The notes under the pieces: model-generated
Seen by the model: the letters and a program-made list of their open reading frames with translations, nothing else
What the model was told of the DNA's origin: nothing
Database searches by the model: none
Part shown: positions 21,076 to 31,494 of the stretch, in pieces
Position numbering within the stretch: position 1 is the first letter of the stretch
Layout: every line of letters begins with the position of its first letter
DNA from: Solobacterium sp.
GTDB taxonomy: Bacteria > Bacillota_I > Bacilli_A > Erysipelotrichales > Erysipelotrichaceae
NCBI GenBank assembly: GCA_017430925.1
Contig: JAFRMA010000004.1
Location: 1-35,244, forward strand
Length of the DNA stretch: 35,244 bases
Direction: 5' to 3'
Position numbers and translations under genes: made by a program

Positions 21076-21537
21076 ATGAAAAAATTATTGATTTTACTGA
21101 CTTTTGTGCCAATCGCTGCCGGCTGGTTGATTAACCTGACAATCGGTATACCTTTGATCGGATTATTTATGTTTTATTTACTGCCTTTTGCGGTACTGTT
21201 TTTCTGGTTTTGGCTGGGGGAACAATTCGCGCAAACGGATTGGGGATTCTTACCGTCGGTGATCATCGGCAGTGCTACAGGAGTAATTTCACTGGTTTTA
21301 TATATCTGGCAGTTCTTGTTTAAGACAGAGGAAACCCGGAATCTGTTTATCGCCGGATTGTCGCAGATGTACAGCGCATCTATTCCGGGTTATTTGTTTG
21401 GCTGGCTGGCAAGAATGTTTGAATCTCAGCCGCACTATATTGGAAGAACTTCGTTTCTTGCCTTACTGGTAATCGCTGTAATAGTCATGATGGTCATTTT
21501 CGTCTGCGGATACATCAACGGGAAGAAAGCGAGATAA
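21076..21537 (+). CDS. Small hypothetical membrane protein (153 aa)
   Basis: A 153-residue protein with four predicted membrane helices, beginning at residues 2-20, 24-50, 57-78 and 125-147. The second half carries a polar loop with YLFGWLARMFESQPHY. I do not recognise a family. The start ATG 21076 has GGAGG 16 bases upstream and a closer purine stretch GAGAAAG. It is flanked by the S10-type gene (divergent) and a lipoprotein gene about 210 bases downstream in the same direction. That 210-base gap holds no convincing gene. No functional inference is made beyond membrane location. Confidence 0.7.
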   Translation: MKKLLILLTFVPIAAGWLINLTIGIPLIGLFMFYLLPFAVLFFWFWLGEQFAQTDWGFLPSVIIGSATGVISLVLYIWQFLFKTEETRNLFIAGLSQMYSASIPGYLFGWLARMFESQPHYIGRTSFLALLVIAVIVMMVIFVCGYINGKKAR

Positions 21538-21748
21538 TTAACCATTTGTCAGGATCTTTATGACATACCTCTTTATCCGGGATAACTGCCCTGATGAAGA
21601 GGATATTTTTATGTCCGATACGGAATTCACTGCCTGGCCACAGGAAAGAGATGTTTTTTGCGTATACCTGCGGATGTTCAGAAAAACCTGTTTGTTTCTA
21701 TGTGCGGGGAATATAATGAGATTGTTGATTGGAAAGAGGTTATTCATC

Positions 21749-22426
21749 ATGAAGAAGGCAATGAATGCTTTGCTGTCTGTATTTCTGACAGTGACACTTG
21801 CCGGATGCGGTTCATCATCTGATTCCACTCCGGCTCCGACAACAAATACAAGCGAGAAAGAAACTGCCGTACCGGAAACACCTTCGCCTGTTCCTACACA
21901 AAACTCTTCAACATACGATACATATAAAGTCGGGGATACGATCTACACCTACAGTGATATCACTTTTACTTTGTCTGAAGTCGGTATTTCAGAAACAATA
22001 TCCCGTGAGCCCGATGATACATTCCTGCTTCCGGCAGAGGATGGCTTCAAATCCGGTGAAGCATACCGGTTCCTATACTACAAGATTGATTTCACGTATA
22101 CCGGGAAAGAACCAAAGAAACAGTATGGTCTGTTCTATATGCAGGGATATGCCCAGCAAATCCAGTTAAAAACGGAATTCTTTTCGGCATCTGTCTTCAG
22201 ACCTGTCGGTGCAGAAGAATGGATGACAGGCGGTTATTCCAGCGGTGCGGGACAGATAATCAGACCTCTCATTGAATTGCCTTATGGCGATAACTATGAA
22301 TTTACGCCTTCTGATCAGATGTATGAGGCACGGGGAATGGTTGTTTTCCCGACAGAAGAACTGGAAAAAGGACCAGTCAAACTTAATCTGAATAACTATG
22401 TGTTTGAAATAGATCCGCAAAGCTGA
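21749..22426 (+). CDS. Secreted lipoprotein, DUF4352/DUF5067-like
   Basis: A 225-residue lipoprotein. The start at ATG 21749 follows AAAGAGG; the longer upstream frame has no translation signal. A signal peptide ends in a lipobox LAGC with the lipidated Cys at residue 20. A Ser/Thr/Pro-rich linker (about 21-55) is followed by a beta-sandwich-like domain with TYKVGDTIYTYSDITFTLSE and a late GMVVFPTEELEKGPVKLNL. The pattern of beta strands with a final 'value/VFEI' strand resembles immunoglobulin-like DUF4352/DUF5067 lipoproteins of Firmicutes. Its role is unknown. It is followed by its own terminator and a tRNA gene on the other strand. Confidence 0.78.
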   Translation: MKKAMNALLSVFLTVTLAGCGSSSDSTPAPTTNTSEKETAVPETPSPVPTQNSSTYDTYKVGDTIYTYSDITFTLSEVGISETISREPDDTFLLPAEDGFKSGEAYRFLYYKIDFTYTGKEPKKQYGLFYMQGYAQQIQLKTEFFSASVFRPVGAEEWMTGGYSSGAGQIIRPLIELPYGDNYEFTPSDQMYEARGMVVFPTEELEKGPVKLNLNNYVFEIDPQS

Positions 22427-22472
22427 TCTGTAGTCTTTCAGACAGAAAGAAGTAATTCCTGGATAATAAAAT

Positions 22473-22500
22473 GCCGGAGGTGTTTCACTTCCGGCTTTTT
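22473..22500 (+). terminator. Terminator after the lipoprotein gene
   Basis: A 10-bp stem GCCGGAGGTG/CACTTCCGGC (one G-T pair) with a TTT loop and a TTTTT tail. Confidence 0.85.
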
Positions 22501-22511
22501 GTGCACAATGA

Positions 22512-22600
22512 TGGCGGAGAAGGGGGGATTCGAACCCCCGCACGCTCTCACGTCTGCTGGTTTTCGAAACCAGTCCCTTCAGCCGCTTGGGTACTTCTCC
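22512..22600 (-). tRNA. tRNA-Ser (anticodon CGA)
   Basis: A complete class II tRNA on the minus strand with an encoded CCA. The acceptor stem is GGAGAAG/CTTCTCC with discriminator G. The anticodon stem CTGGT/ACCAG encloses the loop TTCGAAA, so the anticodon is CGA (plus-strand 22564-22566) and it reads UCG. The T-arm contains GGTTCGAATCC, and a long variable arm is present, as expected for serine. It stands alone between the lipoprotein gene and oppA. Confidence 0.95.
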
Positions 22601-22660
22601 GTAGCCTATGAATTATAGCATAGATGAAAATAACATTGCATCATTATATTGTGATAAATG

Positions 22661-22689
22661 TTGAAGTTCTGTCACAGAATCGGTATAAT
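22661..22689 (+). promoter_or_regulatory. oppA promoter with palindrome in the spacer
   Basis: TTGAAG (22661-22666) and TATAAT (22684-22689) are separated by exactly 17 bases. The spacer contains the perfect interrupted palindrome TTCTGT-C-ACAGAA (22667-22679), starting right after the -35. A protein bound there would block RNA polymerase. Confidence 0.75.
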
Positions 22690-22739
22690 ATATCGTGCTT
22701 ACACGAAAAGTGTATGTTATTTCATATGGGAGGAAAGAA

Positions 22740-24827
22740 ATGAAAAACATGTTTTCCAAGTATCTGAAGACTGGTTTCTCTCTCGTTCTGGCCGCTTCTT
22801 TAGCCGCTTGTTCAAACGGCGCTCCGGCAGGACCTGCAGAAGTAAACTATGTCCGTGCAGATGACGACGACGTCTATGAAGCTTCCCTGGGAGACTATGA
22901 AGGTCTTGCATCAGAAGCAAAGACTGCTGCAAACAACGATGAACGTTTCGTTAAGTATGCGCAGGCTGAGGCAGCTTTATTAGAGTCCGCGGTTATGATC
23001 CCGACAACCACACAGGGTGGTGCTTACACGATCAGCCGCATTGCTCCGAGAACAGTTCCGTATGTTCAGTGGGGTAACGATGATGACCGTCTGAAGGGTC
23101 TGGTAATTTCCGATGAATTCCTGACACCTGCAGAAAGAGATGACCTGTTCGCTGAATGGAACAAGGCAGTTGCCGGTGAAGGTACATATGATCCTGCAGC
23201 TTACCTGACAAGCAAAGGTCATACACTCCAGACCGATTACACAACGACATTTGCTACAGCTCCGGTTACTCTGGACTGGCTGAACACAAGTTCCCAGAGT
23301 GATACTGAACTGACAGTAAATACAGTTGATGGTCTTGTTGAGTACAACAACCTGAACCAGATGACTCCTGCACTGGCAGAGAGCTGGGAAGTTTCCGAAG
23401 ATGGCACAGTTTATACATTCCACATTCGTCCGGGTGTTTACTGGTATACATCTGAAGGTACACAGTATGCGGAAGTTACAGCTAACGACTTCGTTGCTGG
23501 TCTGCGTCATATGCTGGACTGCCAGGCTGGTCTGGAATGGCTGCTTGACGGTGTTGTTGTCGGCGCTACAGATTACTATGCAAACGGCGGCAGCTTCGAC
23601 AATGTCGGATATAAGGCTGTTGACGACTACACACTGGAAGTAACACTGGAAAAGGATATTCCTTATTTCATGACCATGCTGACATACAGCTGCTTCCTGC
23701 CGATCTGTGACAGCTTCTATCAGAGCCGCGGCGGTGTCTATGGTGTTGATGAATATGCAAAGGCATTCGAAGATACCAACGCTTATACATTCGGTAAAGC
23801 CGGTGATGTTGCTTCTCAGGTTTACTGCGGACCGTTCCTGATCCAGAAGTTCCAGGGCGACTCCGAAATCTCTGTTGTACGTAACCCTGGTTACTACAAG
23901 GCTGATGAAGTTACTCTTGATTCCATCAAGTGGGTCTATGACAATGGTGAAAACCCGGATGCTTCCTATAACGATACTCTGAACGGAACATATGCAGCTA
24001 TCACACTGAATCCTTCCACAGGTCTGCTGCAGAAGGCTAAGGATGACGGAAACTTTGATAAGTATGCTTACGTTTCCGAAACTACTTCTACAACATTCTT
24101 CGGCGGTCTGAACCTGAACCGTGGTACATTCGCTCTTGAGTCCGGTGCAGCTGCTTCTCCGAAGTCTGAACAGGAAAAGATCGATACGAATACTGCTCTG
24201 AACAACAAGAACTTCCGTAAGGCTATGCTCCATGCATTCGATAAGGAAACTTGGAATGCGGTTACCCGTGGTGAAGAACTTGCTCTGACCAATGTCCGTA
24301 ACATGTATACACACCCTGAATTCGTTTCTCTGTCCGGGGATACAACAGTTGATGGTCATACATTTGCTGCCGGTACATTCTACGGTGAAATGGTTCAGTA
24401 CTATCTCGATGAGATGGATGCTCATATCCAGGTCGCTGATGGTGTCAACGGATGGTTCGATCTGGACTATGCGAAGGAATGCCTCGATGCTGCGAAAGAA
24501 GAACTTGGTGATACAGTAACATGGCCGATCAAGATCGACGTTGTTTACTACTCCGCAAGTGATTCCAATGCTGCACAGGCTAACGCATACAAGGAAATCA
24601 TGGAAACCAACCTTGGTGCTGACAATGTTGTTGTCAACCTGGTTGAAACAACTACAGCGGATGACTTCTATGCTTGTGGCTATCGTGCATCCAATGGTGA
24701 AGCAGGCAACTTCGATATGTTCTATGGTTCCGGTTGGGGTCCTGACTATGGTGACCCGTCCACTTACCTGGATACATTCCTGGGCGGCGGTGCCGGCTAT
24801 ATGACAAAGGTTGTTGGTTTGTACTAA
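22740..24827 (+). CDS. oppA: Oligopeptide-binding lipoprotein OppA, apparently circularly permuted
   Basis: A family-5 (SBP_bac_5) extracellular solute receptor, 695 residues, that delivers peptides to OppBCDF. The start at ATG 22740 follows GGGAGGAAAG. The signal peptide ends in lipobox LAAC (Cys24). Residues ~52-143 (DYEGLASEAKTAANNDERF, AEAALLESAVMIPT, ISRIAPRTVPYV, LTPAERDDLFAEWNKA) match what normally closes these proteins. Canonical N-terminal sequence begins only after a linker at ~162 (PVTLDWLNTSSQSDTE, TPALAESWEVSEDGTVYTF, DFVAGLRHMLD). The protein ends at GWGPDYGDPSTYLDTF...MTKVVGLY, where the missing C-terminal module would be expected. Order is thus C-module, N-module, middle. Codon use is strongly biased, as for an abundant protein. 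A hairpin separates it from oppB. Confidence 0.9.
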   Translation: MKNMFSKYLKTGFSLVLAASLAACSNGAPAGPAEVNYVRADDDDVYEASLGDYEGLASEAKTAANNDERFVKYAQAEAALLESAVMIPTTTQGGAYTISRIAPRTVPYVQWGNDDDRLKGLVISDEFLTPAERDDLFAEWNKAVAGEGTYDPAAYLTSKGHTLQTDYTTTFATAPVTLDWLNTSSQSDTELTVNTVDGLVEYNNLNQMTPALAESWEVSEDGTVYTFHIRPGVYWYTSEGTQYAEVTANDFVAGLRHMLDCQAGLEWLLDGVVVGATDYYANGGSFDNVGYKAVDDYTLEVTLEKDIPYFMTMLTYSCFLPICDSFYQSRGGVYGVDEYAKAFEDTNAYTFGKAGDVASQVYCGPFLIQKFQGDSEISVVRNPGYYKADEVTLDSIKWVYDNGENPDASYNDTLNGTYAAITLNPSTGLLQKAKDDGNFDKYAYVSETTSTTFFGGLNLNRGTFALESGAAASPKSEQEKIDTNTALNNKNFRKAMLHAFDKETWNAVTRGEELALTNVRNMYTHPEFVSLSGDTTVDGHTFAAGTFYGEMVQYYLDEMDAHIQVADGVNGWFDLDYAKECLDAAKEELGDTVTWPIKIDVVYYSASDSNAAQANAYKEIMETNLGADNVVVNLVETTTADDFYACGYRASNGEAGNFDMFYGSGWGPDYGDPSTYLDTFLGGGAGYMTKVVGLY

Positions 24828-24845
24828 TTCATTGTTAAGCTGAGA

Positions 24846-24880
24846 ACACACATAAGAGGGAAACCTCTTATGTGTGTTTC
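24846..24880 (+). terminator. Hairpin between oppA and oppB (terminator or attenuator)
   Basis: A 14-bp perfect stem (24846-24859 with 24864-24877) with a GAAA loop, followed by only TTTC. It may partially terminate transcription so that the receptor is made in excess over the membrane subunits, or stabilise the oppA 3' end. Confidence 0.75.
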
Positions 24881-24896
24881 TTACAATTCATTTTGT

Positions 24897-24950
24897 ATGA
24901 AACGCTAAACTGATTTTTTACAAACGTAAAAGATGAGTTTAGCATTTCAT
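24897..24950. repeat. 54-base inverted repeat upstream of oppB
   Basis: Arms of 15 bases (24897-24911 and 24936-24950, one mismatch) flank a second smaller stem TTTTAC/GTAAAA around AAAC. It lies 17 bases after the oppA terminator-like hairpin and ends 40 bases before the oppB start. It has no T-tail, so it is more likely an RNA stability, processing or operator element than a terminator. Confidence 0.5.
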
Positions 24951-24990
24951 CTTATCGGGATACGGAAAAGGAGGGGAAGAATAGAAAATC

Positions 24991-26577
24991 ATGAGGAAAT
25001 ATCTGCGAAGAAGAATACTATTCTCGATTTTCTCACTTCTTGTTGTTGTCATGGTGGTTATGCTTCTGGTCTATACAATGATCGAGAGAAGCGTTATATT
25101 TCAGCAGGATGATGTGTGGAATAAAAAGAGTAATAATGACCGTATAACGTATGAGTATGCGCAGTACCAGAAATACGGGTATTTAACTTATGTAGATTAC
25201 ACGAGTTTTTTACGTGATAAGTACATTGAAAAGTATGATGCGAATACCTATACGGAAAAACAGGATTACCTGGATGACAAGGCTGTAATTCAGGATGCCA
25301 AGGCATATCTGAAGAACGCTTCGGTACAGGAATTTATCTCCATGTATGAGGGTAAAGGATATACGATCCGTTATCTTGAACCATTAAAATATCGTAACGG
25401 CGGCACAAAACCGGGCGGCAACGGCTCACTTCTTGCGATTACGGAGAAGAGTGTAGTTAACCGTCTGTGGAATTATATCAAAGGGTTTATCACCGTAGAA
25501 ACAACTAAGGATATTAAGGATCCGGAACTGACAGAACGGTATATCCGGGTGGAAAAAGATCCGTATTCCGGCTTGTTTGCGGTTGTGGGTTCCGGTACAC
25601 AGCACAAGTATCTGCTGTATTTTGACGGTCGTTTCCCGTTCATTCATCAGAACTGGATCCATCTCAATCTGGGAACTTCCTATACACGTTTCCGCGGACA
25701 GGAAATCACAGATGTCATCAACAGTCCTACAGGTGATTTGAAGCCGAAAAGACAGCAGTATCCCGCCATGCTGGGAACCGATGAGTATGTCAATATAGCA
25801 GTTGATTTCCACACGTTAACGTATAACTCCGGTATTGTCAGTGATGTGGAGAAGAGACAGTTCAATGACAAATACACGGTATATTCCTACAGACGTTCGG
25901 GATTATCCATGCTGGAGAATTCCTTCGTGATTGGTATTATCGCGACATTGATCGCGTATGCTCTGGGTCTCCCGCTTGGTATGACCATGGCCAGACATAA
26001 GGATGGTCTGGGTGATAAACTCGGCAATGCGTATATCATCTTTATTATCGCGGTTCCGAGACTCGCGTATATCTTCATGCTTGCGGCTTTAGGTACGACA
26101 CTGTTCCATCTGCCGTATAAGTTTGCGAACGCAGAGGTGCGGATCCTGGCGTATGTTTTACCTACGATCTCTATGGCGCTTCCTGCCATCGGAGGTCTGA
26201 TGAAGTGGATGCGCAGATACATGATCGACCAGATGAATTCGGACTACGTCAAGTTTGCGAGGGCCGAAGGCCTCTCCGAAAAAGAGATCTTCAATATCCA
26301 TATTTCCAAGAACGCGATGATCTATCTGGTTCACGGAATCCCGGCAGAGATTCTGGGATGTCTGGTCGGTGCGATCATTACGGAACGTGTGTATTCTGTG
26401 CCTGGTGTAGGTAACCTGCTTACCCTGGCAATCAACTCGCATGACAACGGAATTATCGTAGCCTGTACGGTATTCTATACATCCTTGTCAATTATTGCCC
26501 TGATCCTGGGTGATTTACTGCTGACGAAGTATGATCCTCGTATTTCGCTGTCTGAAGATTCAGGAGGTGGCCGATAA
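24991..26577 (+). CDS. oppB: Oligopeptide ABC transporter permease OppB with large external domain
   Basis: A binding-protein-dependent transport permease of 528 residues, well above the ~310 of classic OppB and near the ~500 of streptococcal AmiC. TM1 is at about residues 9-31. It is followed by an extracytoplasmic region of about 270 residues (30-300) with Tyr-rich, mixed charge sequence, and then the usual five-helix core from ~305 onward. The EAA loop reads SDYVKFARAEGLSEKEIFNI, then VYSVPGVGNLLTLAI and a final TKYDPRI, all typical. AAGGAGGGG is 14 bases before the ATG. The stop overlaps the oppC start (TAATG), indicating coupling. The external domain could dock the unusual OppA; this is inference. 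Confidence 0.92.
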   Translation: MRKYLRRRILFSIFSLLVVVMVVMLLVYTMIERSVIFQQDDVWNKKSNNDRITYEYAQYQKYGYLTYVDYTSFLRDKYIEKYDANTYTEKQDYLDDKAVIQDAKAYLKNASVQEFISMYEGKGYTIRYLEPLKYRNGGTKPGGNGSLLAITEKSVVNRLWNYIKGFITVETTKDIKDPELTERYIRVEKDPYSGLFAVVGSGTQHKYLLYFDGRFPFIHQNWIHLNLGTSYTRFRGQEITDVINSPTGDLKPKRQQYPAMLGTDEYVNIAVDFHTLTYNSGIVSDVEKRQFNDKYTVYSYRRSGLSMLENSFVIGIIATLIAYALGLPLGMTMARHKDGLGDKLGNAYIIFIIAVPRLAYIFMLAALGTTLFHLPYKFANAEVRILAYVLPTISMALPAIGGLMKWMRRYMIDQMNSDYVKFARAEGLSEKEIFNIHISKNAMIYLVHGIPAEILGCLVGAIITERVYSVPGVGNLLTLAINSHDNGIIVACTVFYTSLSIIALILGDLLLTKYDPRISLSEDSGGGR

Positions 26578-27548
26578 TGTCTGAACTGAAAAATATGACA
26601 CCTGAAGAGCGTAAGGCATTATTCACTTTCGTGGATAACGATGCGATTTCTTCGGAGAAGATCGTAGCTCCGCGGTATTCCTACTGGCGCAGTGTATTCC
26701 GTGTGTTCTTCCGCAAGAAGATCAACATTTTCTGTCTGGTCGTTCTTACGCTGATCCTGCTGATCTCCTTTATCATGCCGTATTTCTGGCCGTATAACCT
26801 GATGGAGAACGTATCCCGGGCAACTTCCTATAACCTGTCGCCAAAGGCTGCACAGGCATATTTCGGGGGATTCTCAATAAAGTGGCTTCTGGGTACAGGT
26901 TCCTATGGGAATTCCATCCTGTACGGTATCGTTTCTTCCGCACGTACAAGTCTTCTGCTGGCGATTATCTGTGCTGCCATCAATATGACACTTGGTATTA
27001 TCATCGGTGCTATCTGGGGTTATTCCAAGCGTTTTGACTCCGTCATGCTGGTAATATACAACATTATCGCCAATGTTCCTTATATCCTGCTGATTTCAGT
27101 TCTGGTATATATTATTGGTTCCGGTTTCTGGAGTTTTATCTTTGCGCTGACGGTTACCGGCTGGCTGGGTATCGCGTACTTCTTCCGTACCCAGGTCATG
27201 ATCATCCGTGACCGTGAGTATTCCCTGGCTTCGAGATGTCTCGGTACTCCGGTGACACGCGTGATCTCCAAGAATATCCTGCCTTTCCTGACATCCGTCA
27301 TCGTTACGTTACTGGCAACGGAATTACCTTCCTATATCTCCATGGAAGTATTCCTTTCCTATATCGGTGTCGGTTTAAGTGCTACGATTCCTTCTCTGGG
27401 AAGAATGATCCAGCAGGCACAGACAGCCTTCCTGACCTATCCTTGGGAATTCTGGCCGCCTGTATTCATCGCTTCGGCAATCACGATCATTCTGTACGTT
27501 CTTGGACAGAATCTTGCGGACGCATCCGATCCGCGTACACATATGTAA
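26577..27548 (+). CDS. oppC: Oligopeptide ABC transporter permease OppC
   Basis: The second permease subunit, 323 residues. A ~47-residue cytoplasmic N-terminus (with FRKKINIFCLVVLTLILL leading into TM1) is usual for OppC. An external loop with LLGTGSYGNSILYGIVSSAR marks the OppC family (GTDxxGRD-type in classic members, here GTGSYGNS). The cytoplasmic EAA motif is REYSLASRCLGTPVTRVI. Six membrane helices in total. The start overlaps the last base of oppB. oppD follows after 15 bases with AGGAGGTG. It forms the membrane channel with OppB. Confidence 0.93.
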   Translation: MSELKNMTPEERKALFTFVDNDAISSEKIVAPRYSYWRSVFRVFFRKKINIFCLVVLTLILLISFIMPYFWPYNLMENVSRATSYNLSPKAAQAYFGGFSIKWLLGTGSYGNSILYGIVSSARTSLLLAIICAAINMTLGIIIGAIWGYSKRFDSVMLVIYNIIANVPYILLISVLVYIIGSGFWSFIFALTVTGWLGIAYFFRTQVMIIRDREYSLASRCLGTPVTRVISKNILPFLTSVIVTLLATELPSYISMEVFLSYIGVGLSATIPSLGRMIQQAQTAFLTYPWEFWPPVFIASAITIILYVLGQNLADASDPRTHM

Positions 27549-27563
27549 CAGGAGGTGCGTACA

Positions 27564-29360
27564 ATGAGTGAAAATAACGAAAAGAAAGTCCTTCTGTCAC
27601 TGAAAAATGTAGAAGTTAAATTCAATGTCCGCGGCCGTATCCTGACAGCGATCCGGAATGTATCCCTGGATATCTATGAGAATGAATCTCTGGCGATCGT
27701 TGGTGAATCCGGTTCCGGTAAGTCTGTATTGACCAAAACATTTGCGGGTATGCTGGATTCCAACGGATTTATTCCGCAGGGAAGTATCATCTTCTCTGAT
27801 GATGAAATTTCCAAAACAGAGATCAAATTAGATGGCAAGAATAAACAACTCTTTGACTGGGCGCTGGATATGCTGAACAAGCATTCTGTTCTGGAAAGAG
27901 GTTCTCAGGAATTCCGCAGGATCTCCGAGATCAACAATGAGATCAAATATGCCAAGACTCTGACACCGGATGAAGAAATCGAATTCAATGCACGTGCGAA
28001 GAAAGCTTCCGATGATGTTGTCGATAAGCGTAACTATCTGCAGACACTGGATAAGAAGATCGATGCGGAAGAAATCAAGACTGTAGAAGTACAGATCAAG
28101 GAACTGGAAAAGATCCGTGACAGTATTGAAGAAGAGAAGAAAGCACTGCTGAAACAGCGTGTGGAAATCTATAACAACAACCACGAGAAACTGCAGCAGA
28201 ACGAAGCTTTGCTGGCTGAATTAAAGAAGACCCGTGAAGAAAAGATCAAAGCAGAAGAAGTTCCGGGGAATACCAACGGCCTGCCGGAAGAAATCCTGGA
28301 AAGAAACAAGCGTATTGCGTATGAGATCGTCCTGTCCATCGGCAGGTATCCGTTACGTCAACAGTTCACCTTTAAACGTAAACTGGATAAAGCTTTTGAA
28401 CTTGCGATGAGTCTGGGAGAAGATCTCAGTAATCCAGATGTTCTGAACAAGATCTTTGAAGTTTGTACATTCCGTGTAGAATACCGCTCGTTTGACGAAA
28501 GTACGCAGACAATTCATGGCTATGCCATTATCGACTGCGCGAAGATCAAGCTGGCGGAAGACTGGCAGAAGATCCGCGGCCGCCGTATCGCAACGGTATT
28601 CCAGGATCCGATGACCTCCCTGAACCCGGTCATCACGATCGGTAACCAGATCAAGACGGTTATTCTCAAGCATCAGAAGTGCTCGGACGCAGAAGCTCGT
28701 GAGCGCACGATTGATATCATGCGTAAGGTAGGTATTCCTGATCCGGAAACACGTTTTGATGACTATCCGTTTGAATATTCCGGCGGTATGCGTCAGAGAA
28801 TCGTTATCGCGATTGCCTTGTCCTGTCAGCCGAAGATCCTGATCTGTGATGAACCGACAACCGCTTTGGACGTTACCATCCAGGCGCAGATCATCCGTCT
28901 GATCAAGGACCTGCAGAAAGAACTGGGCTTTACCACTGTATATATCACGCATGACCTCGGCGTTGTCGCAAACGTGGCAGAGCGTGTCGCTGTATTATAT
29001 GCCGGCCAAATCGTGGAAATCGGTACGGTAGAAGAAATCTTCTATGATCCTCGTCATCCGTATACCTGGGCATTGTTAAGCTCACTGCCGCAGTTATCCA
29101 CGAAGGGATCCGACCTGTTCTCCATCCCGGGAACACCGCCGTCCCTCTACAACAAGATCGTCGGTGACGCATTTGCGCCGAGAAACCAGTACGCGATGGC
29201 TATCGATCTGGTAGAAGAACCGCCGATGTTCCAGGTCAGTGAAACACACTTCGCCAAGACCTGGCTGCTGGATCCGGACGCACCGAAAGTAGAAGCACCG
29301 GAGAATATCCGTAACCTTCATGAGAAGATCAAGAAGACCCATATTGACTTTGAAGCCTAG
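27564..29360 (+). CDS. oppD: Oligopeptide ABC transporter ATPase OppD with ~230-aa insertion
   Basis: The first ATPase subunit, 598 residues against ~330-360 for typical OppD. The start at ATG 27564 has AGGAGGTG six bases upstream. Walker A GESGSGKS is at 47-54; the Q-loop [12 protein letters not shown] only at ~344-355; signature YSGGMRQR at 405-412; Walker B ILICDEP at 425-431; the switch His in YITHDLGVV at ~463. The ~290 residues between Walker A and the Q-loop should be about 55. The extra part (about 90-325) is charged, with a probable coiled coil at ~160-235. All catalytic motifs are intact. The C-terminal OppD extension ([17 protein letters not shown]) lacks the iron-sulfur cysteines seen in some OppD proteins. 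Confidence 0.92.
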
Positions 29361-29374
29361 AAAGGAGACCGAGA

Positions 29375-30322
29375 ATGTCAGAAAGTGAAAAGAAAGTACT
29401 GCTTTCCATACAAAATCTGGATGTTGTTTTCGGCCGTGGAAAGAAGGCATTCAAAGCGGTAGATAATGTCAGCTTTGACATCTACAAGGGTGAGACACTG
29501 TCCCTGGTCGGAGAATCCGGTTCCGGTAAGACAACCATCGGACGTGCTATTGTCAGGATCAATCCCTGTTCCGCCGGTGCTATTTACTATGACGGAAAGA
29601 AGATCTCCGGCAAGCTCTCTGCCAAGGAAGACAGGGAAGTGATTCGTAAGATCCAGATGATCTTCCAGGATCCTGCCGCATCCCTGAATGAAAGAGCGAC
29701 GATTGAATACATTATCTCGGAAGGCTTATATAACTTCCATCTATACAAGGATGAGAAAGACCGTATCGCCAAGATTGAAAAGATCGTGGAAGATGTCGGT
29801 TTACTTCCGGAACATCTAACCCGTTATCCCCATGAGTTCTCCGGCGGACAGAGACAGCGTGTAGGTCTGGCAAGATCCATCGTCATGGAGCCGGAATTCA
29901 TTGTTGCGGATGAACCGATTTCCGCATTGGATGTATCAATCCGAGCCCAGGTATTGAACCTGTTGAAGAAGTTCCAGGTGGAACGCGGACTGACGTATCT
30001 GTTCATTGCGCATGATCTTTCCATCGTACGTTTCATCAGCGATCGTATTGTCGTTATCTACAAGGGTAAGATCATGGAGATTGCGGAGAGCGAAGAATTA
30101 TTCGCATATCCGTTACATCCTTATACCAAGTCTCTGATTTCCGCGATTCCGGTACCGGATCCGATCATTGAAAAGAGTAAGAAACTCTTTATCTATGATC
30201 CGCAGAATATGCATGACTATTCTGTAGAGAAACCGGAACTGGTTGACCTCGGCAACGGACATTTCGTATCCGGCAATTCCGCTGAGATCGAGAAATATAA
30301 GAAGATTCGTTTTGGTGAATGA
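29375..30322 (+). CDS. oppF: Oligopeptide ABC transporter ATPase OppF
   Basis: The second ATPase subunit, 315 residues, of normal size and without the insertion found in OppD. Walker A GESGSGKT is at ~47-54, Q-loop [16 protein letters not shown], signature [15 protein letters not shown], Walker [13 protein letters not shown] and switch [10 protein letters not shown], then the C-terminal [12 protein letters not shown] of the family. It energises peptide import together with OppD. AAAGGAG precedes the start; its stop overlaps the ATG of the ApbE-like gene (ATGA), so translation is probably coupled and the ApbE-like protein belongs to the opp operon. Confidence 0.94.
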
Positions 30323-31494
30323 TCCCTGGTATGGAAAGGGAAGAAATAGTCATCAGTACAAAGAATAAAAAGCTGAGAACGGTACTTTTCGTTCTTGCTT
30401 TTTTCGTTGCGGTTTCCGCGTTTGCGTACGGCATTACTTCGCTGGGTCATAAAGATCCCGGATATCATGAAGTAGAAGTCAGCGAGTATAAGAAGGTTGA
30501 ATTGTTCGACACCGGCATTCATCTGTATTATTCTTTTGAAGGGAACAGCAACCAGATCAAACGGCAGATCAATGAGTTGAAAGAAATCTATACCACAGCC
30601 CTTGATCATGCCTGGAAGATGATGGACAAGTGCACAGAACACGAAGGATATCACAACCTGGCATATCTGAATCATCACTTGAATGAAGACGTGGAAGTTG
30701 ATGAAGAACTTGTCAGGATTCTGCAGGATGCCTGGCAGAAGTCCGATACACGGAAATATTCTGTGTTTGCAGGACCGTTGTTTGACCAGTGGAAGGAGAT
30801 CCTGAACGCGGATGATCCGCAGACTTTTGATCCGCTGAACAACGAGGTTGAAAGACAACGTCTGGAAGAACTCTGCGCCTGTCTTCAGGATCCGCAGAAC
30901 TACGATCTCCGCTTTCAGGGGAATACCGTACACGTGTATGTCAGTGATACTTTCCTGACAGTACTCAAAGACAGTGAATATCCGGAAGAAATCCTGGATC
31001 TGAATCTTCTGCGTGACGCATATCTGCTGGAGAATATCCGGGATCAGTTAGCCGGACAAGGCTGGCGGAAAGGGTATCTCGAAAGCGAAAAGGGAATGAT
31101 TCTCGGACTTGGAGAGATGCCGGTACAGGAGTGTGTTCTCTACACATACGATGAGGATGTTGTGCAGGCGGGAAGTTTTCCGGTGCAGGAAAAGACCGCG
31201 GTCTGCCGGCTCAAGACATTCTCTGCCGGCGAAACAGGATATTACGTTCTGGAAGAGGATTCCCCGGTATTCCGTCATCCGTATCTGGAACTTACCGGTT
31301 ATCCAAGAAACGATATACGCAGCCTGTACGTGGTGGATGATACAGGAGATCTGATTGAAACCTCCTATCAGGCAGCTGTGAGCGATCCGGAGGCGATTCA
31401 CGTACCGTGGAAGTGTATCTATACCTTGTCCGAGGATCCTGTGCACTGGATCACTGATACACCGGAATTCTTTACCCTGAACCAGCAGAATTAA
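30319..31494 (+). CDS. Membrane-anchored ApbE-like protein, catalytic residues apparently lost
   Basis: A 391-residue protein with one N-terminal membrane helix (~20-38) and an external domain. I read the domain as ApbE fold (FAD:protein FMN transferase): [21 protein letters not shown] matches the family's 'LSxLN...V...L..LL' region, [12 protein letters not shown] matches FDITVGPLxxLW, DLNLLRDAY (227-235) sits where DLGGIAKGYA belongs, and [11 protein letters not shown] (319-329) where HIIDPxTGxP belongs. The KGYA lysine and the late Asp...Thr Mg2+ ligands (here around DLIETSYQA) are not conserved, so transferase activity is doubtful. The start is either ATG 30319 (overlapping oppF) or 30331. 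A role as an accessory or binding protein of the Opp system is inferred from coupling only. Confidence 0.68.

Follow-up and report, generated by a model that had tools for sequence, protein, structure and literature searches.

The question raised by positions 22740..24827 (forward strand) of the window, the whole 35,244-nucleotide stretch of Solobacterium sp. DNA analysed here, is whether a family-5 oligopeptide-binding lipoprotein (OppA/AmiA-like, 695 residues) can carry its closing C-terminal module at the front of the chain, that is, as a circular permutation, as a preliminary description of the sequence had claimed. The open reading frame begins at an ATG preceded by an AGGAAAG Shine-Dalgarno sequence and, as read from the sequence, specifies a lipoprotein signal peptide (22740..22808) that ends one residue before Cys24 of the lipobox LAAC, a residue predicted to be lipidated. 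Cys24 and an acidic linker with invariant Y37, R39 and D41 (residues 24-41; 22809..22862) lead to the new mature N-terminus, which is followed by the C-module (residues 42-145; 22863..23174), by a junction linker that runs from the old C-end to the old N-start (residues 146-165; 23175..23234), by the old N-terminal part comprising domains I/II and the first part of domain III (residues 166-680; 23235..24779) and by a new C-terminus ending in LGGGAGYMTKVVGLY and the stop codon (24780..24827), all on the forward strand; a GWGPD motif (W666, D669; 24732..24746) was placed by alignment to AliB. A phmmer comparison with the PDB divided the protein into two matches in inverted order, residues 167-680 corresponding to residues 16-497 of AmiA (8a42; 278 bits) and residues 42-145 to AmiA 516-623 (i-E 6e-5); the same front module matched AliC (8qlh) 511-616 with 43 bits and an i-E of 1.3e-10, and AliB was likewise matched in inverted order. 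The Mycoplasma OppA HMM NF043077 is also met out of order, with profile positions 784-881, 40-135, 262-454 and 674-737 succeeding one another along the gene, while hhalign aligned the front module with the C-terminus of the canonical relative L114 (probability 99.3, E 2.5e-20, 43% identity over 76 residues). The claim of a permuted chain is thus borne out, albeit with shifted boundaries: the closing module, first placed at residues ~52-143, occupies 42-145, and the ordinary N-terminal part, first placed after ~162, starts near 166, behind a new linker at ~146-166. The moved part is indeed a closing module, but it is not taken from lobe 1 alone, as it consists of the end of domain III and the C-terminal piece of domain I.

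Residues 208-685 correspond to positions 2-365 of the Pfam profile PF00496, whose gathering score is exceeded (165.5 bits versus 32.4), and homology to family 5 is not in doubt; it is only the canonical N-to-C order of the segments that the 695-residue protein lacks. As PF00496 covers the core in one stretch, the module order is invisible to it, which affects annotation. The front module lies outside this Pfam match and could in principle be an unrelated domain with a chance likeness to a C-module, but the AliC and hhalign E-values given above, together with the lack of an ordinary C-module elsewhere in the protein, leave this idea with next to no credibility.

The permuted order is shared by a set of proteins referred to here as type T1. 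Close relatives, sought in one genome per species, were found at 14 separately deposited MAG loci with the same order, junction linker and new C-terminus, the matches running across the junction at 62-97% identity in the best segment; these MAGs come from rumen and gut and bear labels such as Solobacterium, Oscillospiraceae and Lachnospiraceae, among them a Solobacterium MAG from sheep duodenum (L043) at 97% identity. More distant T1 members, at 39-45% identity, retain the same order, linker and C-terminus, the permuted form occurs in 10 of 295 genomes of the order of G378 (G378 included), and the T1 form is also present, with a complete oppBCDF operon, in two genomes from a different family within the window's class. 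Nearly all genomes compared are MAGs. Across 28 aligned proteins the junction linker, homologous in all T1 members, has the approximate pattern Y-[DE]-x-x-x-YL-x-x-x-G-[YH]-T, that of the new C-terminus being G-[YDG]-M-x-K-x-x-G-[LI], and because both are homologous in these 28 proteins T1 likely goes back to one ancient permutation. Several T1 origins were considered, as a quick tree does not resolve two T1 groups, but the shared linker argues for one. Cys24 is invariant in 15 relatives, and a lipobox is found in the T1 lipoproteins but is missing in four large or N-terminally incomplete paralogues. The window is part of a draft MAG of 115 contigs, where a canonical gene could have been mis-joined, frameshifted or reduced to a truncated pseudogene with its true C-module lost downstream. 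Such an artefact is effectively excluded, because order, linker and C-terminus are conserved in 28 proteins that come from separately deposited genomes, from different studies and from two or more bacterial orders; moreover, no coding remnant follows 24827, six-frame translation of 24828-24990 revealed no second C-module, and the operon is intact. Neither outcome that would have overturned the preliminary description was therefore encountered, the front segment matching the family's C-terminus and not its N-terminus, and the sequence checks which that description proposed all turned out as it had predicted.

The gene is adjoined on its 3' side by oppB (24991..26577), which encodes an AmiC-like permease of 528 residues with a long region before the permease domain, oppC (26577..27548), also a permease gene, and the ATPase genes oppD (27555..29360; 601 residues) and oppF (29375..30322), all on the forward strand, thereby giving the OppABCDF gene neighbourhood. 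Two strong RNA hairpins (24842..24882 and ~24897-24950, forward strand; z -6.1 and -7.8) lie between oppA and oppB and probably limit downstream expression or protect the oppA message. A tRNA-Ser gene is located 5' of oppA on the opposite strand, and M28 and S10-like peptidases adjoin the locus, which is consistent with a role in peptide scavenging. OppD carries an insertion of ~200 residues inside its ATPase domain that is common to T1 operons and missing from canonical AmiA-like operons of the same genus, and the Mycoplasma OppD model aligns with this OppD end to end. The gene after oppF (30319-31494) shows a weak likeness to ApbE, below the Pfam cut-off, and is kept beside oppF in T1 operons.

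An AlphaFold model obtained from 15 sequences (pLDDT 74, pTM 0.76) predicts the two-lobed fold with an extra domain II that characterizes cluster C. Its core (163-690) superimposes on AmiA 8a42 with a Z of 25.8 and an rmsd of 2.5 over 487 aligned residues, the structural alignments listed spanning just residues 150-692 and barely covering the front module. Parts of the front module reached a pLDDT of 86-93 in the whole protein and mostly stayed below 80 when modelled alone, as expected if the module packs on the core; the model of the isolated module was poor and matched nothing in the PDB. W666 and D669 align with W500/D503 of AliB and W498/D501 of AliD, and this Trp-x-x-Asp is kept in 28 of 28 T1 proteins; in AliB and AliD the Trp and Asp, on strand beta-20, hold the N-terminus of the peptide (PMC11192437). 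The preliminary description had further held that both termini of the canonical family-5 fold lie in one lobe, in agreement with the structure of AliD, where domain I comprises residues 29-63, 191-296 and 583-617 and domain III residues 297-582 (PMC11192437). In the mechanism we propose, the chain would fold as an ordinary two-lobed peptide trap, its former ends joined in domain I by the linker of ~20 residues and its new ends lying in domain III next to the peptide pocket, so that the lipid anchor would hold lobe 2 instead of lobe 1, while peptides would be bound as by AmiA and AliB and then passed to OppBC. AliC, whose sequence is the closest PDB match of the front module, formed a domain-swapped dimer in the crystal (PMC11192437), and a permuted chain might similarly exchange its front module between neighbouring molecules to give an intertwined dimer and not a closed monomer. 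We consider this improbable, as in AliC it is entire lobes that are swapped, at a hinge (290-294) located elsewhere, and as the 20-residue linker bridges ends that lie within one domain of canonical structures, which makes self-closure easier. An ordinary peptide trap that feeds OppBCDF and is held at the membrane by lobe 2 is the best reading that we infer for the protein. Since sequence, fold, motif, anchor and operon all agree with the family, the 695-residue protein is classed with the Ami/Opp-type family-5 binding proteins as a variant in topology, departing from them only in chain order, and its chain is very probably a genuine circular permutation of an Ami/Opp-type oligopeptide-binding lipoprotein that serves an OppABCDF importer.

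The new N-terminus has also been extended in T1 paralogues. In L107:5704-9840(-), of 1379 residues, BspA-type LRR and SLH repeats precede the permuted OppA, and in L108:4851-7325(-) it is preceded by SLH repeats, these two apparently being wall-attached peptide receptors. L109:5321-8977(-), of 1219 residues, is composed of a TIR domain, a low-complexity stretch, an apparent membrane span and a permuted OppA, and has the appearance of a receptor that senses peptides and carries its TIR domain in the cytoplasm. A separate protein of 1729 residues, L162:2663-7849(-), has RCC1-like repeats and fn3 domains and ends in a canonical family-5 binding domain.

To establish how common such permutations are, relatives were scanned with an HMM of the canonical family (552 columns) and topology was read from the order of the matches. 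Both topologies were present in related genomes, and five further permuted OppA groups, T2 to T6, were found in the same bacterial family. T2 occurs in five genomes (L048-L052; G031, G086, G077, G070 and G004; for example L030:637-2343), with its break near column 310, between ...LNVNQ and NFRLALSYAIDR (L052 is cut by a contig end), and sister species have canonical orthologues, ~70-75% identical to it, in the corresponding operon. T3 (L053, the same as L084; L084:2854-4590, G001) and T4 (L078:4075-5781, G003) are each known from one genome, the former broken near column 390 and the latter, at the end of a different operon, near columns 285-310, close to where T2 is broken although it belongs to a different clade. 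T5, found in seven genomes of the window's genus (L143-L149), derives from the short OppA branch and is broken near columns 467-478, the breakpoint of T1 and thus of the window protein; its front module was sub-threshold in three of the seven and was assigned there by sequence. T6, with the same break as T2, is present in three genomes of another genus of the family (L156:3748-5340, L157:4025-5656 and L158:3767-5413(-)), in which canonical orthologues (L160, L161) also occur. The signal peptide, Cys and linker stay in front in all types, save for genes truncated at the edge of a contig, and in every permuted type the old linker is lost and a short new linker joins the old C- and N-ends. A maximum-likelihood tree of the OppA-like half requires five topology changes, each supported: T2 (bootstrap 99-100), T3 (100) and T4 (98) are nested among canonical proteins, T5 forms one clade (100) and T6 groups with the canonical members of its own genus (99). 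As T1 belongs to the other, AmiA-like half of the OppA tree, at least six independent permutations have occurred in this bacterial family, with T2-T5 inside the window's genus. A canonical query against 196 Clostridia genomes gave 128 collinear matches (over at least 400 residues) among the 150 listed, and against this background the erysipelotrichaceous clade looks enriched in permutations.

The origin of the permuted order can be followed in the DNA for T3, which was compared with its canonical orthologue L070 at ~80% nucleotide identity. The upstream gene, the gene start with its signal peptide and the downstream oppB are collinear between the two, while the inner blocks are exchanged in place, L070 1509-2534 corresponding to L084 3552-4577 and L070 2550-3029 to L084 3063-3542; T2 shows the same pattern of block exchange with respect to L086 and L087. 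The permuted order may have arisen when the gene was duplicated in tandem and then trimmed at either end, with the signal peptide kept in place, or alternatively by some other local exchange of two blocks. No intermediate of duplication and trimming was found, and at the window locus neither long direct repeats in 21500-25500, as residual tandem copies, nor a second AmiA-like copy in the genome was detected. The old break of T3 and its new linker have a short GGCGGAGA string in common, which is too short to build on. In G959 a DDE transposase ORF interrupts an OppA gene (L159:2872-6342) close to the boundary at which T2 is broken.

Projected onto mature residues of E. coli OppA, the breaks fall at ~278-282 (T2, T4, T6), 357 (T3) and 433-445 (T1, T5). 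Domain III of OppA reportedly spans residues 271-486 (Tame et al. 1994), and all six breakpoints fall in this domain, which belongs to lobe 2; since the canonical ends lie in domain I, each permutation would shift the lipid anchor out of lobe 1 and into lobe 2. For breakpoints distributed uniformly over the chain, the chance that all six fall in domain III would be 0.005-0.013, a figure that takes no account of structural constraints or of the poor visibility of breaks close to the ends and is only suggestive. The recurrence of the permutations is probably explained by the proximity of the two canonical termini, and possibly also by an advantage of tethering through lobe 2. There is, in our estimate, an even chance that they are neutral, the closeness of the canonical ends allowing duplication and trimming to give working proteins at random and the position of the anchor having no consequence; this concerns the adaptive part of the argument and leaves the permutation itself untouched. 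Short linkers suffice in all six types, T3 represents a local event at an otherwise unchanged locus, and canonical and permuted orthologues occupy the same operon of sister species, all of which a neutral origin would accommodate. Less easily accommodated are the location of all six breakpoints in lobe 2, the apparent enrichment of the clade relative to Clostridia and the retention of T1 over a long evolutionary distance. We advance with reservation, as the somewhat less probable view, that rotation behind a fixed signal is a recurrent, selected route from a lobe-1 to a lobe-2 tether, possibly aided by repeated local duplication or block exchange at opp loci.

The closest solved relatives over the core, in both sequence and fold, are pneumococcal AmiA, AliB, AliC and AliD (8a42, 8qlj, 8qlh and 8qlc), which, like the window protein, are lipoproteins of an oligopeptide importer with a GWGPD motif, but which have the canonical order and the anchor at domain I (lobe 1). 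The NCBIfam models for Mycoplasma OppABCDF (MMSYN1_0165 to 0169) score best for OppA, OppB, OppC, OppD and OppF here, all below their cut-offs (128.9 bits versus 650 for NF043077); the OppA model, of 896 positions, is in canonical order. Canonical AmiA-like OppA proteins of the same genus (L007-L018, L089-L093), 32-36% identical over the core, have the same operon role with their own oppBCDF, but carry the C-module at the C-terminus, alongside an OppD without the insertion and an OppB that is 37-38% identical. A naturally permuted anchored binding protein, TpMglB-2 (Tp0684) of Treponema pallidum, has been described as 'Cluster Bc', with relatives in gut Gram-positives, and its authors proposed a link of permutation to tethering (PMC4990184). 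TpMglB-2 has a Type I / cluster B sugar-binding fold in which strands of the N-lobe have moved to the C-terminus, and was described as one family and not as repeated events, whereas the window protein matches cluster C OppA and is broken in domain III, and so falls outside Cluster Bc. In the open-access full text covered, TpMglB-2 was the only permuted substrate-binding protein encountered, and no permuted family-5 protein or repeated permutation in one receptor family was found. The earlier statement that no permuted OppA had been described holds for the literature so covered, although the protein proved to be one of at least six permutations and no single oddity.

Chain order is normally among the most stable traits of a protein family, and yet in this bacterial family receptors of one kind have been rotated on six or more occasions. 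The breaks lie at three sites within a single domain, and some of the permuted proteins have canonical orthologues of 70-80% identity in the same operon of sister species. These natural pairs allow the origin of permutations to be tested, T3 and L070 providing a recent case with unchanged flanks, and they likewise allow the effect of the position of the lipid anchor on transport to be tested.
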